Virus record (IMG/VR): IMGVR_UViG_3300025771_000162
Span: 1-25,923 of that record
Origin: a virus
Reading direction: 5' to 3' (one strand)
DNA: 25,923 nt
The notes beneath the pieces were generated by a model. The model worked only from the letters and a program-made list of their open reading frames with translations, had not been told where the DNA came from and did no database searches. Shown piece after piece: positions 4,479 to 9,840 of this stretch. Position numbers and translations under genes: made by a program. The number at the start of each line of letters is the position of its first letter. Position 1 is the stretch's first letter.

Positions 4479-4691
4479 ATGAAAGATCTAACTAAAGAAC
4501 TTGAAAGTGTTTGGACGGCTATGAGTCTCTTGGCCAAGCAAGAAGCTATGGCTAAACTTATTGAGCAAAGCCATGCTAAAAAAGAAACCAAAGAAAAAGC
4601 GTTGCGTCAGCTTAAAGGAATCAATGCAGCCTTTAAAGTAGATCAATTTGCTACTAACTATATGCTGTCAGGCGAAGGAATGAAAGTTTAA
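4479..4691 (+). CDS. small helical hypothetical protein
   Basis: A 70-aa protein, nearly all predicted helix and rich in Lys, Glu and Ala (KQEAMAKLIEQSHAKKETKEKAL), which looks like a helical hairpin or a short coiled coil. A GAGGG ribosome site precedes the ATG. Its stop codon overlaps the ATG of the HD hydrolase (TAATG), so the two are translationally coupled and might act together; that is inference. I do not recognise the family. Confidence 0.6.
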   Translation: MKDLTKELESVWTAMSLLAKQEAMAKLIEQSHAKKETKEKALRQLKGINAAFKVDQFATNYMLSGEGMKV

Positions 4692-5209
4692 TGACCTTAT
4701 CTTCTGCAATATCATTTGCAACAATGGCTCATAAAGGGCAAGTAAGGAAGTATACAAACGAGCCTTATATTGTGCATCCTTTAGAAGTTGTCGATATTGT
4801 TAAGTCAGTAGATCATACGGAAGAGATGTTAATAGCTGCTGTCTTACATGATGTTGTAGAAGATACTCCTTTCACTAGCGACGATATACATGACAAGTTT
4901 GGTCCTGTAGTAGGAAAGTTAGTGGATGAGTTGACAGATATATCTAAACCATCTGACGGTAACAGAGCTGTTAGAAAGGCTAAAGACCGGGATCATTTAG
5001 CTAAAGCTTCAAAAGCTGCTCAAACTATTAAAGTAGCTGACTTAATAAGTAACACTACAAGTATTGTAGAGCACGATCCTAAGTTTGCTGAAGTCTACTT
5101 GAAAGAGAAAGCTGACTTGTTAGATGTATTAGTGTTAGCTGACAAAAAACTTTTAAAAAAGGCAATAAACCAGTTGCCTTTTTGTCAAGAAGATACTATA
5201 TTAATATAG
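4691..5209 (+). CDS. SpoT/MESH1-like HD-domain hydrolase (putative small alarmone hydrolase)
   Basis: A 172-aa stand-alone HD domain of the RelA/SpoT hydrolase type. Visible motifs are AHKGQVRK (13-20), YIVHP with His29, LHDVVEDT with His53-Asp54 and Glu57-Asp58, and KVADLISNT with Asp117. These correspond to the Mn-binding and catalytic positions of (p)ppGpp hydrolases. No synthetase, TGS or ACT domain is present, so it matches the length of MESH1-like small alarmone hydrolases. It would degrade (p)ppGpp, or the 2'-phosphate of NADPH as some MESH1 proteins do, in the host cytoplasm. It is the last gene of its unit, and the promoter of the next gene sits inside its 3' end. Family call is strong; the exact substrate is inference. 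Confidence 0.85.
   Translation: MTLSSAISFATMAHKGQVRKYTNEPYIVHPLEVVDIVKSVDHTEEMLIAAVLHDVVEDTPFTSDDIHDKFGPVVGKLVDELTDISKPSDGNRAVRKAKDRDHLAKASKAAQTIKVADLISNTTSIVEHDPKFAEVYLKEKADLLDVLVLADKKLLKKAINQLPFCQEDTILI
5174..5202 (+). promoter_or_regulatory. sigma70-type promoter inside the HD hydrolase 3' end
   Basis: TTGCCT, 17-bp spacer, TATATT, preceded by AG. The whole element lies within the last 12 codons of the HD gene and drives the DUF932 gene, whose leader carries GAGGAGG. Confidence 0.7.
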
Positions 5210-6903: not shown

Positions 6904-7473
6904 ATGAATAATGTGATATTAACAGATGCCGATGGTGTACTTCTTAACTGGGAGTACGCTTTCGATTGTTGGATGGAAGAGAAAGGCTACACACCTTTAA
7001 CTCGGGACCATTACGATGTAGAGGCTCGCTACGGACTAGAGAAGAAAGAAAAAGATCTTCTTGTACGTGCATTTAACGAATCAGCTGCTATTGGCTTCTT
7101 ACCTCCTCTGCGTGATGCTATGCATTATATCAGACGTCTACATGAAGAACATGGTTTTATATTTCGTGTCATTACTTCATTGAGTCTCAATAAACACGCT
7201 GGACGTTTAAGACAAAAGAATCTATTTAAGTTATTTGGTACAGCCATTGATGAAGTTGTTTGTCTTGATACTGGAGCTGATAAAGATGAAGCTCTAGCGC
7301 CCTATAAAGACTCAGGAATGATTTGGATTGAAGATAAGCCTGAGAATGCAGATTTAGGTGCTCGACTTGGTCTTCAAACTTATCTTATGGAACATAAACA
7401 TAATATGAACCATAATAATAAAGATGTAACAATCGTAAAGAACTGGAGAGCTATTTACGATTTGATTGCATAG
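6904..7473 (+). CDS. HAD-superfamily hydrolase (5'-nucleotidase-like)
   Basis: A 189-aa protein with the HAD motifs in order: motif I LTDADGVLLNW (nucleophile Asp8 and acid/base Asp10), motif II VITSLS, a Lys in the DKDEAL segment, and motif IV WIEDKPENADLG with acidic metal ligands. The small helical cap fits the deoxy-5'-nucleotidase (NT5C) type. Such genes are common in marine T4-like phages and probably dephosphorylate nucleotides or another small phosphate ester in the cytoplasm; the substrate is inference. It is preceded by its own promoter and an AAGGAG site and followed by an 8-bp hairpin that overlaps the stop codon. Confidence 0.82.
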   Translation: MNNVILTDADGVLLNWEYAFDCWMEEKGYTPLTRDHYDVEARYGLEKKEKDLLVRAFNESAAIGFLPPLRDAMHYIRRLHEEHGFIFRVITSLSLNKHAGRLRQKNLFKLFGTAIDEVVCLDTGADKDEALAPYKDSGMIWIEDKPENADLGARLGLQTYLMEHKHNMNHNNKDVTIVKNWRAIYDLIA

Positions 7474-7508
7474 TATGGTAAAAATACCATACATCTAATT
7501 TATTTTTC
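7473..7508 (+). terminator. hairpin after the HAD gene, probable terminator
   Basis: GTATGGTA, loop AAAA, TACCATAC: a perfect 8-bp stem starting in the stop codon, followed by a T-rich but interrupted tract (ATCTAATTTATTTTTC). The tract is weaker than at the other terminators. Confidence 0.6.
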
Positions 7509-7536
7509 TATAGTTACAAAAATAAAGCTATAAAAA

Positions 7537-7544
7537 AATAAATA
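7537..7544 (+). promoter_or_regulatory. possible late promoter for the tmRNA
   Basis: AATAAATA matches the NATAAATA core of T4-like late promoters and lies about 7 bp before the likely 5' end of the tmRNA. The surrounding DNA is very A-rich, so chance is a real possibility. Confidence 0.3.
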
Positions 7545-7550
7545 AAATTG

Positions 7551-7797
7551 TTAACGTTGAAGCAACGTGGACACATACTGGACCCGGGGGCGGTACCCGG
7601 CGACTCCACCATAAGTACATTTGCTGAGTGTGTTTATGATGGGGTCGAAATAGGATCGACAGGTGTGAAAGTGAAGTGGAGTTAACCGGATGACTGCGTT
7701 ATTGGTCAATCACTACAAATGCAAACGATAACTTTGCACCTCAGGAATTTGCTCTAGCAGCATAATCCTATGAGCCGTTGAGGTGGCTTGGAAACAG
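7551..7797 (+). ncRNA. ssrA: tmRNA, circularly permuted (two-piece) form
   Basis: tmRNA rescues stalled ribosomes and tags the incomplete protein for proteolysis. The gene is permuted: the acceptor piece comes first and ends in an encoded CCA (7609-7611). Its T-arm region is GGGGGCGGTACCCGG. The coding piece starts at GGGGTCG (7641-7647), which pairs with CGACTCC (7601-7607) to make the 7-bp acceptor stem with one G-U. A GTGTG (7663-7667)/CACAT (7572-7576) helix matches P2. The 29-nt spacer folds into an 11-bp hairpin continuing the acceptor stem, as expected for a precursor cut into two pieces. The tag reading frame at 7721-7765 encodes ANDNFAPQEFALAA then TAA, close to alphaproteobacterial tags. 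After it AGCC/GGCT forms a P5-like hairpin. The exact ends are estimates. Confidence 0.92.
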
Positions 7798-7799
7798 AA

Positions 7800-7824
7800 G
7801 AGGGACTTCGGTCCCTCCCTCTTT
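7800..7824 (+). terminator. hairpin with UUCG loop ending the tmRNA transcript
   Basis: GAGGGAC, loop TTCG, GTCCCTC, then CCTCTTT. The C(UUCG)G loop is very stable. The T tract is short, so it may serve mainly as a 3' processing or stability element of the tmRNA precursor. Confidence 0.65.
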
Positions 7825-7849
7825 AAGTAACAACAAAGAAAGAAAATAA

Positions 7850-8218
7850 ATGAAATATGTTTTACCTTTAGCAGTCGCAACAACATTAACTGCTAGCTCT
7901 CTTTTTGCAAATGAGATTGGTGCCACTGGTATAAGCTGGGGTATAGAGACAACAACAGAATATAATACAGAATCAGAAGTATTAACTCTAACAACAACAC
8001 CAGAGCTAAACTACACAATGTGGAATCTAGACTTGACAGCATCAAGTGATATTGCCATTTACAATGAAGAATTTGTTCTAGGTGATAAGAACCCTACTCT
8101 AGATTTTGAAATTTCTAAAATGATGATGGAACAAGTAGAAATATATGCTAAGACAGGTTATGATCTAGAAAAAGATGAAATGAATGATATTGTTGTAGGT
8201 GCTACATTCTCATTCTAA
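7850..8218 (+). CDS. small exported beta-rich protein, possible outer-membrane barrel
   Basis: A 122-aa protein with a clear signal peptide: MKYVLPLAVATTLTASSLFAN, cleavage likely after the Ala at residue 20. The mature part is made of alternating beta strands (TTEYNTESEVLTLTTTPELNY) and ends in GATFSF, a C-terminal Phe after alternating hydrophobics as in outer-membrane beta-barrels. It is too short for a full porin, so an 8-strand barrel or a periplasmic beta protein is possible. Similar small exported proteins occur in marine phages, with unknown function. It lies 26 bp downstream of the tmRNA hairpin with only a weak AAAGAAAG ribosome site, and it is followed by a strong terminator. Confidence 0.65.
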   Translation: MKYVLPLAVATTLTASSLFANEIGATGISWGIETTTEYNTESEVLTLTTTPELNYTMWNLDLTASSDIAIYNEEFVLGDKNPTLDFEISKMMMEQVEIYAKTGYDLEKDEMNDIVVGATFSF

Positions 8219-8241
8219 TATAAATACATAACCATTTAAAG

Positions 8242-8263
8242 AAGGGGGTACGCCCCCTTTTTT
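8242..8263 (+). terminator. intrinsic terminator
   Basis: AAGGGGG, loop TACG, CCCCCTT and a run of T. It overlaps the start of the next promoter by a few bases on its 3' side. Confidence 0.88.
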
Positions 8264-8265
8264 AG

Positions 8266-8294
8266 TTGCCATTTGTAGAGGGTCATACTATAAT
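8266..8294 (+). promoter_or_regulatory. sigma70-type promoter for the cell-wall hydrolase gene
   Basis: TTGCCA, 17-bp spacer, TATAAT, preceded by AG. The leader TATGGTATGATGAGCAGGAG closely resembles that of the HAD gene. Confidence 0.78.
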
Positions 8295-8322
8295 AATATG
8301 GTATGATGAGCAGGAGATACAA

Positions 8323-8844
8323 ATGAATAAAGTTTTAACTATTGCTTTAGCTATTTCGATAGCTATTGGATCATCTTCTTTACTTGCAAAAAACAATATA
8401 GATCTTGCAAGTGAAGAGTATAATAGACAAATAGCTGCTGAGGTTGAATGCTTAGCTCTTAACATATATTTTGAGACTCATGCTGTATCTTTAGCAGACG
8501 CCGTAGCAGTTTCTGATGTAGTACTTAACAGAGTTAAAAGTTCTAACTATCCTAATACAGTTTGTAAAGTAGTTAAGCAAGGCTATTATGATTCAAACGG
8601 TAACCCTATCCGACATAAGTGTCAGTTTAGCTGGTGGTGTGATGGTAAATCTGATAATCCTAAAAATTATGAAGCGTGGGAAAGATCACTAGCCGTAGCT
8701 AAAGAGATCTATCTTGCCGAATCTTACATCGGTATTACAGAAGGCGCTACTCATTATCATGCTAATTATGTATCACCGGAATGGTCTAATCAGTTTACTC
8801 GAGTTACAAGAGTAGGTTCTCATATTTTTTATAGGCAGAAGTAA
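8323..8844 (+). CDS. SleB-type cell wall hydrolase (Hydrolase_2), exported
   Basis: A 173-aa protein. The ATG at 8323 is chosen because CAGGAG lies 7 bases upstream and the protein then begins with a signal peptide (residues 1-22, hydrophobic core LTIALAISIAIG, SLLA cleavage region). The mature domain matches Hydrolase_2/SleB: ECLALNIYFE with Glu51 as probable catalytic residue, DVVLNRVKSSNYPNTVCKVV, CQFSWWCDGK, GATHYHANYVSPEW and RVGSHIFY. It should cleave peptidoglycan in the periplasm. With a Sec signal it could work without a classical holin as a secreted endolysin, which is inference. Its stop codon overlaps the next start (TAATG). Confidence 0.88.
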   Translation: MNKVLTIALAISIAIGSSSLLAKNNIDLASEEYNRQIAAEVECLALNIYFETHAVSLADAVAVSDVVLNRVKSSNYPNTVCKVVKQGYYDSNGNPIRHKCQFSWWCDGKSDNPKNYEAWERSLAVAKEIYLAESYIGITEGATHYHANYVSPEWSNQFTRVTRVGSHIFYRQK

Positions 8845-9623
8845 TGCGACATGTTTTAGTGACTGGAGGATTTGATCCTCTTCATTCTGGTCATATAGAT
8901 TATTTTAAAGCTGCTAAGCAATTAGGTAATACTTTAACTGTTGGTTTAAATTCAGACGAATGGTTAACTAGAAAGAAGGGACGACCTTTTTTACCTTTTG
9001 AAGAACGTAAAGCTATTATTCAAGAGCTAAAATGTGTAGATAGGATTATTTCTTTTAATGATAATGACGATTCAGCTTGTAATGCTATTTACAGGCTACT
9101 ATCAAAAATACCATCAGGAGATAAAGTGATATTCGCTAACGGTGGTGATAGAAATCAAAACAACACACCTGAGTTTAAAACTTACGGTCAAATGCCCTGG
9201 GTTGATTTTGTACATGATGTTGGCGGTAGTAATAAGAAGAATTCATCTAGTTGGATATTAGATGAATGGAAAACTCAAAAGACAGAGCGTGACTGGGGTT
9301 ATTGGAGAGTATTAGATGACAAGCAGCCTCGTATAGGCCAAAAAGTAAAAGAGCTTGTTATTAATCCAGGTTGTAGTTTAAGTAATCAGAAACATTTATA
9401 TAGATCAGAATTCTGGTATGTTTTAGAAGGTGATATTGAAATTAGTTTAGTATTTCCAAATAAAGAATGGCAAATACAAATGCTATCAGAACATACTCAA
9501 TATGTTATTCCTGCAGGGGTGTGGCATAAGACTACTAATATAGGTTCTACCCCTGCTCATATTGTAGAGATACAATATGGAGAAAAATGTATAGAGGAGG
9601 ATATCGAGCGTAAAGATGGTTGA
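8844..9623 (+). CDS. cytidylyltransferase-like domain fused to a sugar-isomerase-type cupin
   Basis: A 259-aa two-domain protein. Residues 1-about 135 are a nucleotidyltransferase of the GCT/RfaE2 type: GGFDPLHSGHIDYF holds the HxGH motif (14-17), followed by VGLNSDEWLTRKKGRPFLPFEER and a Ser-rich end segment (SSSWILDEW). Residues about 145-255 are a cupin like the C-terminal domain of type II mannose-6-phosphate isomerase/GDP-mannose pyrophosphorylase, with RDWGYWRVL, YRSEFWYVLEGD and VIPAGVWHKTTN. The pair suggests activation of a sugar phosphate for a nucleotide sugar, perhaps to modify host lipopolysaccharide or phage glycan; this is inference. It overlaps both neighbours, linking it to the hydrolase and to gp33. 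Confidence 0.8.
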   Translation: MRHVLVTGGFDPLHSGHIDYFKAAKQLGNTLTVGLNSDEWLTRKKGRPFLPFEERKAIIQELKCVDRIISFNDNDDSACNAIYRLLSKIPSGDKVIFANGGDRNQNNTPEFKTYGQMPWVDFVHDVGGSNKKNSSSWILDEWKTQKTERDWGYWRVLDDKQPRIGQKVKELVINPGCSLSNQKHLYRSEFWYVLEGDIEISLVFPNKEWQIQMLSEHTQYVIPAGVWHKTTNIGSTPAHIVEIQYGEKCIEEDIERKDG

Positions 9624-9840
9624 AATAATGAACACTCAAGCCTTTTCGATGAAGATCGAGCAGGTAGTAAAAGAAAAAAGAATAACTTATTTTGATGCTG
9701 TACTATGGTATTGTGAGAAAAATGAAATAGAAATAGAGACTGGTGCTAAGTTAATTAACACTATTATTAAGAAAAAAATAGAAGCTGAAGCTTCAGATAT
9801 GAATTGTTTAAAAGAGAAATCTGCTAAGTTGCCTGTGTAA
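9616..9840 (+). CDS. 33: gp33-like late transcription accessory protein
   Basis: A 74-aa helical protein matching the short gp33 of marine T4-like phages: FSMKIEQVVKEKRITYFDAVLWYCEKNEIEIE, AKLINT, and the C-terminal KLPV. In T4, gp33 binds the RNA polymerase beta flap and connects it with the gp45 sliding clamp, working with the sigma factor gp55 at late promoters. The position directly before gp59 and gp32 is the same as in T4. The ATG at 9616 overlaps the upstream gene; an ATG at 9628 is an alternative. Its presence supports the reading of NATAAATA motifs elsewhere in the window as late promoters. Confidence 0.8.
   Translation: MVEIMNTQAFSMKIEQVVKEKRITYFDAVLWYCEKNEIEIETGAKLINTIIKKKIEAEASDMNCLKEKSAKLPV

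Follow-up and report, generated by a model that had tools for sequence, protein, structure and literature searches.

A circularly permuted, two-piece-type tmRNA gene in a virus fragment with T4-like genes, and small protein genes predicted within the spacers of its relatives

The stretch of DNA analysed here (the window), a fragment of 25,923 bases, is an IMG/VR virus record (IMGVR_UViG_3300025771_000162) and carries a complete gene for a circularly permuted transfer-messenger RNA (tmRNA) at 7550-7824 on the plus strand. A tmRNA rescues stalled ribosomes and marks the incomplete protein for degradation. Two Rfam covariance models recognise this gene: RF01849 (alpha_tmRNA) matches positions 7502-7808 at 135.2 bits (cut-off 50, E 4e-37), and RF04321 (tmRNA_permuted) matches 7550-7765 at 126 bits (cut-off 47), with the acceptor piece preceding the coding piece. 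ARAGORN independently calls a permuted tmRNA with the tag ANDNFAPQEFALAA. An initial annotation, made from the letters alone, had proposed a phage-encoded, circularly permuted tmRNA of the two-piece type and named the alpha_tmRNA model as a check. With a score far above that model's cut-off, the second model, the ARAGORN call, covariation among 152 related genes and T4-like genes flanking it on either side, this identification stands. The end at 7824, as the annotation gave it, is the last base ahead of the first difference from a near-identical contig, L124.

The acceptor stem, encoded CCA, T-arm, P2 pairing and tag with stop codon listed in the annotation can all be read in the sequence or in the RF04321 alignment (Table 1). 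All seven acceptor pairs form between 7601-7607 and 7641-7647, including G3-U70 (7643/7605), a pair that serves as an identity element for alanyl-tRNA synthetase (AlaRS). The spacer between the two pieces had been described as an 11-bp hairpin continuing the acceptor stem. RNAfold (7597-7648) returns such a continuous hairpin, but the length was put slightly short, the predicted fold comprising 8 pairs, one C-A mismatch and 13 pairs. Its energy is -23.5 kcal/mol (z -4.4), and none of 200 shuffles was equally stable. The larger precursor fold is unexceptional, with a z-score of only -1.4, and the structural case is therefore built on the covariance-model matches together with covariation among relatives. 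Within the coding piece, an ACAGAA motif is present in 137 of 145 phage relatives (19 expected from shuffling), and AGCC/GGCU and GAGG/CCUC pairings in the 7773-7799 region could form a last pseudoknot. The hairpin at 7800-7817, which received no call in the terminator scan, may be a terminator or a stem protecting the 3' end.

Table 1. Features of the tmRNA gene and its surroundings in the window, with the relatives that carry spacer open reading frames (ORFs).
Feature	Position	Strand	Basis
Terminator-like stem-loop 3' of the upstream gene, between that gene and the tmRNA	7473-7492	+	Terminator scan (1 found, 0.5 expected)
Acceptor piece (3' part of mature molecule): P2 5' strand, T-arm, acceptor 3' strand, A73, CCA	7550-7611	+	RF04321, RF01849, sequence
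P2 5' strand (partner ~7661-7667)	7573-7579	+	RF04321 alignment
T-arm, stem CCGGG/CCCGG	7582-7600	+	Covariance alignment, sequence
Acceptor-stem 3' strand CGACUCC, U70 at 7605	7601-7607	+	Sequence
A73	7608	+	Sequence
Encoded CCA	7609-7611	+	Sequence
Predicted excised spacer, 29 nucleotides (nt), hairpin extending acceptor stem	7612-7640	+	RNAfold
Coding piece: acceptor 5' strand, D-like region, P2 3' strand, resume site, tag ORF, 3' stem-loop region	7641-7824	+	Rfam models, L124 identity
Acceptor 5' strand GGGGUCG	7641-7647	+	Sequence
Tag ORF ANDNFAPQEFALAA (7721-7762) and stop TAA (7763-7765)	7721-7765	+	ARAGORN, tag script
Coding-piece 3' domain, conserved AACAGAA motif	7773-7799	+	Motif count in phage relatives
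3'-end hairpin GAGGGAC-UUCG-GUCCCUC	7800-7817	+	RNAfold
gp33-like late-transcription coactivator, downstream	9616-9840	+	PF16805, E 1e-21
gp59	from 9840		Synteny partner downstream of tmRNA
gp32	from 10476		Synteny partner downstream of tmRNA
Spacer-ORF loci in relatives	L057, L134, L021, L169, L102, L190, L023, L063, L251, L042, L056, L065, L090, L100, L112, L197, L029, L186, L200, L040, L149, L020, L024, others		

Two motif scans of viral contigs gave at least 120 matches each, so the permuted type is common. From the matches listed in these scans, phage records and the window itself we assembled 152 non-redundant phage-type genes; a fully paired T-stem was required, and acceptor pairing and U70 were not. 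Standard pairs nevertheless fill 1057 of the 1064 acceptor cells, the best of 1000 partner shuffles reaching 974, with compensatory changes at acceptor positions 4 to 6. G3-U70 is kept in all 152 genes and the first P2 pair in 150, with A-U, U-A, G-C and C-G types all present. Pairing is found at 78% of the spacer bases that adjoin the acceptor stem; swapping spacer ends between sequences lowers it to 60%. Across these genes, the charging determinant and the pairing of the two pieces have been maintained by selection in phages, and this favours a gene with a working role during infection over a stray host fragment.

Conservation at closer range points the same way. The tmRNA of contig L124 shows no change from window positions 7628-7824 (197 nt covering the spacer end and the coding piece), within a 1.7-kb alignment that is 93.4% identical (~6.6% differing). 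By our arithmetic, the chance of 197 unchanged bases is ~2e-7, given ~7.5% difference elsewhere and even rates. The best identity of the window tmRNA is 84% to another phage gene, versus 72% to a sampled cellular gene, and in a tree of 200 columns a single branch (Shimodaira-Hasegawa-like approximate likelihood ratio support 92) separates 48 sampled phage tmRNAs from 31 cellular ones. This split fits a long residence of the tmRNA in phages.

The proteins of the window are T4-like, and include gp32, gp59, a gp33-type coactivator, a DNA end protector, and head closure, tail tube, baseplate wedge and baseplate hub proteins. For the gp6-type protein, the closest isolates are Melnitz, Mosig and HTVC008M at 38-39% identity, which makes the window virus a distant relative of the pelagimyophage/Melnitz group; it is a T4-like myovirus of bacteria, probably marine. 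Of 151 tmRNA loci, 113 hold one or more homologues of the window's proteins. A gp33 homologue, found in the available flank of 60 loci, lies on the same strand as the tmRNA in every one of them and no more than 3 kb downstream in 53, followed by gp59 and then gp32.

The window gene is a further member of an already known kind, with a two-piece phage tmRNA published for Melnitz (PMC9004378) and another annotated in the record of Mosig. The Melnitz paper describes its tmRNA upstream of the coactivator and lists 53 two-piece structures among 133 unique tmRNAs of 402 phages (PMC9004378). Methylophilales phage Melnitz (MZ577097), a T4-like marine phage, resembles the window in carrying a tmRNA of the permuted two-piece type upstream of the late-transcription coactivator gene; its tag ANDNYVPVDYALAA is of the same form, and its gene scores 113 bits to RF04321. 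The two mature tmRNAs are ~72% identical, and the Melnitz spacer is 142 nt long whereas that of the window has 29 nt. Melnitz also has a glutamine riboswitch directly after the tmRNA, which our search confirmed at 52.8 bits, while the window gave no match even at a relaxed threshold. The SAR11 myophages Mosig EXVC030M and HTVC008M, both Pelagibacter phages, likewise have a permuted tmRNA near a gp33-type gene. They score 94 and 91 bits, below the window, and their tags (GEDNFALAA and ANFNEYALAA, respectively) are shorter than the window's. The HTVC008M gene (L257), at 145161-145370, is unannotated in both KC465899 and NC_020484. With the alphaproteobacterial two-piece tmRNA (RF01849, Caulobacter type) the window gene has in common the permuted layout, G3-U70, P2 and the tag, but it scores lower and is without part of the 3' region of the coding piece. 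With the window, the set of phages known to encode a ribosome-rescue RNA of their own gains a divergent lineage.

Permuted tmRNAs with tags ending RLAA or AIAA were also seen in other large Rhodobacteraceae phages (RcXuper, DSS3_MAL1 and DSS3P8; L363-L365), and are unannotated in RcXuper and DSS3P8. Phage-type permuted tmRNAs occur in addition on two contigs from cellular bins, L134 (PBDU01000009, named Euryarchaeota) and L149 (NZKY01000164, named Opitutia). The former holds several T4-like genes and the latter a DUF932-type homologue, and both are probably misbinned phage DNA.

The tag itself is ordinary in form (ANDN...ALAA). A tag ORF is readable in 149 of the 152 phage genes, the tag script requiring a final Ala, and 103 of these 149 end in ALAA. 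The suggestion in the annotation that an altered tag might escape or redirect proteases finds no support in a tag of so common a type. Among the matches listed, ANDNFAPQEFALAA was otherwise seen only in L124, and close variants are abundant. Of 23 matches to ANDNFAxP codons in the cellular collection, none of those parsed had the window tag, in a partial comparison, since many tmRNAs of small genomes escaped the search pattern. Unusually long phage tags of up to 29-31 amino acids, such as ANDNALSNVTFVDFSAPVTAVNEDFALAA, were read in a putative frame in L083, L097, L108, L110 and others, and the tag called for Mosig (L256) starts with Gly and not with the usual Ala resume codon.

From the computed anatomy, conservation, covariation and T4-like synteny we infer transcription, processing, charging, activity and a benefit to the phage. 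The gene quite likely makes a working two-piece tmRNA, which during infection would serve trans-translation of the ordinary kind, relying on SmpB and AlaRS from the host. The transcript would fold so that the acceptor stem runs on into the spacer hairpin, and host RNA-processing enzymes would cut out the 29-nt spacer. Two pieces would result, an acceptor piece with CCA at its end and a coding piece whose first base is G1, joined through the acceptor stem and P2. Charged by host AlaRS through G3-U70, the tmRNA would enter stalled ribosomes with host SmpB and EF-Tu, where the charged Ala and then ANDNFAPQEFALAA would be added and the ribosomes released, the ALAA end directing the tagged product to host proteases. 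A copy of its own would most likely allow the phage to keep ribosomes recycling during host RNA breakdown.

Several observations weigh against this interpretation. SmpB (PF01668) was found in none of 17 related phage records, three of them complete isolates, with control genomes behaving as expected, and the function of the tmRNA would therefore depend on host SmpB. The RF01849 score of 135 bits is below that of most cellular alphaproteobacterial genes (mostly >200 bits), because part of the 3' region of the coding piece is missing. The tmRNA tree is short, weakly supported and of low resolution, with its phage rows sampled by motif.

A shared SmpB pool, which phage and host tmRNAs would have to draw on given that none of the 17 records has an SmpB of its own, also opens the way to a different role. 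The phage tmRNA might act as a decoy or modulator that binds SmpB, EF-Tu or AlaRS, competes with host tmRNA and alters or damps host trans-translation, and PMC11915505 cites a tag-less phage form that inhibits host tmRNA in E. coli. Such a decoy would have no need of a tag. Unlike DS6A, the window gene keeps a full tag ORF, a stop codon and a typical ALAA degron, and the tag region is the same in the window and L124; we consider a decoy function improbable. It is more improbable still, and strongly so, that the gene is a passenger, a remnant from a virus that integrated at a host tmRNA gene or left one by imprecise excision. Host ssrA often serves as a site of integration, and gene exchange with a temperate phage is an origin considered by the Melnitz authors (PMC9004378). 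The window gene, though, is complete with both pieces present, a scan of 30 ORFs detected no integrase, and the gene set is that of a virulent T4-like phage with a stable neighbourhood upstream of gp33-gp59-gp32 in many phages. Covariation, sequence conservation and the clustering of phage genes apart from sampled cellular ones speak against a remnant as well, and the integration hotspot envisaged in the annotation is likewise unsupported. A cellular origin of the contig, or a chimera joining host tmRNA to phage DNA, is barely credible. Contigs in IMG/VR are called by machine, and the window is a fragment, but the independent contig L124 has the same tmRNA coding piece beside nearly the same phage genes, mostly 96-100% identical in amino acids, and a tmRNA occupies the corresponding position in the isolates Melnitz, Mosig and HTVC008M.

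The preferred reading, a working phage tmRNA, leaves the spacer as a part to be discarded, and it is here that the most original lead of this analysis lies, in the relatives and not in the window gene. The window's own 29-nt spacer holds no ORF. Spacers range from 9 to 499 nt in the 152 phage genes (median 85.5), compared with 11-68 nt in 21 cellular genes. In 27 of the 108 phage spacers of at least 60 nt, the longest ORF was reached by no more than 1 in 100 shuffles, where about one such spacer is expected. These ORFs form at least seven families of small proteins, and nested protein genes in the spacers of relatives are well supported by the sequence comparisons. Ratios of nonsynonymous to synonymous differences per site (pN/pS) within families are mostly 0.1-0.5, including 0.12 over 76 codons for L057/L134 and 0.25-0.38 for L023/L063/L251, which indicates that the predicted genes are under purifying selection. 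L057/L134 had been clustered together with L102/L190, which are dissimilar to them (ratios 0.8-0.9), and the two pairs were treated as separate families. The acceptor stem is still fully paired (7/7) in 29 of 30 loci with spacer ORFs, the ORF product has a strongly hydrophobic segment in 18 of the 30, and in many loci the stop codon ends one base before G1, the mature 5' end. The L102/L190 protein has a weak resemblance to DUF2061, just under the cut-off.

A scan with the L057 protein returned 20 loci. In 15 of these (79-100% identical) the ORF is directly upstream of a tmRNA coding piece, identified by pattern in 14 and by Rfam in L349; the other five (53% identical) have no tmRNA by pattern or Rfam, and in one of them, L361, the ORF looks like a free-standing gene. 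Two ORFs are readable in the L355 spacer, and the spacers of L355, L357 (~1303-1848) and L020 appear to hold two consecutive small ORFs. As a separate observation, some cellular permuted genes seem to have very long spacers, the matches L278, L279 and G194:C27:2350-3256 spanning 700-900 nt.

We tentatively suggest, as a possibility somewhat short of an even chance, that in this phage group small protein genes, often of membrane type, use the spacer as a cargo slot and share a transcript with the tmRNA, and that processing may release a short mRNA. A resulting coupling of spacer-ORF expression to tmRNA maturation is speculation. A tRNA gene and a repeat have been described in the spacers of permuted tmRNAs, with homing endonucleases in intron form (PMC11915505). 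In a partial literature search we found no report of protein genes within an excised tmRNA spacer, the closest cases being those of PMC11915505. Spacer-nested genes would represent a new arrangement, with a protein gene placed in the segment that processing removes from a non-coding RNA.

A sigma-70 promoter scan of 7200-8400 gave 5 sites against 5.2 expected from shuffles, with no excess, and the window has a single copy of the T4 late-promoter motif TATAAATA, below the number expected by chance. Elsewhere in the window, 4691-5209 encodes an HD-domain phosphohydrolase (PF13328, HD_4) that by our reading resembles an enzyme of the (p)ppGpp-hydrolase type. Positions 7850-8218 encode a small protein with no Pfam or PHROG match, which we read as having a signal-peptide-like start and a beta-barrel-like appearance. 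In 11 of the 12 loci where both were detected, the tmRNA is followed immediately by a homologue of this protein.
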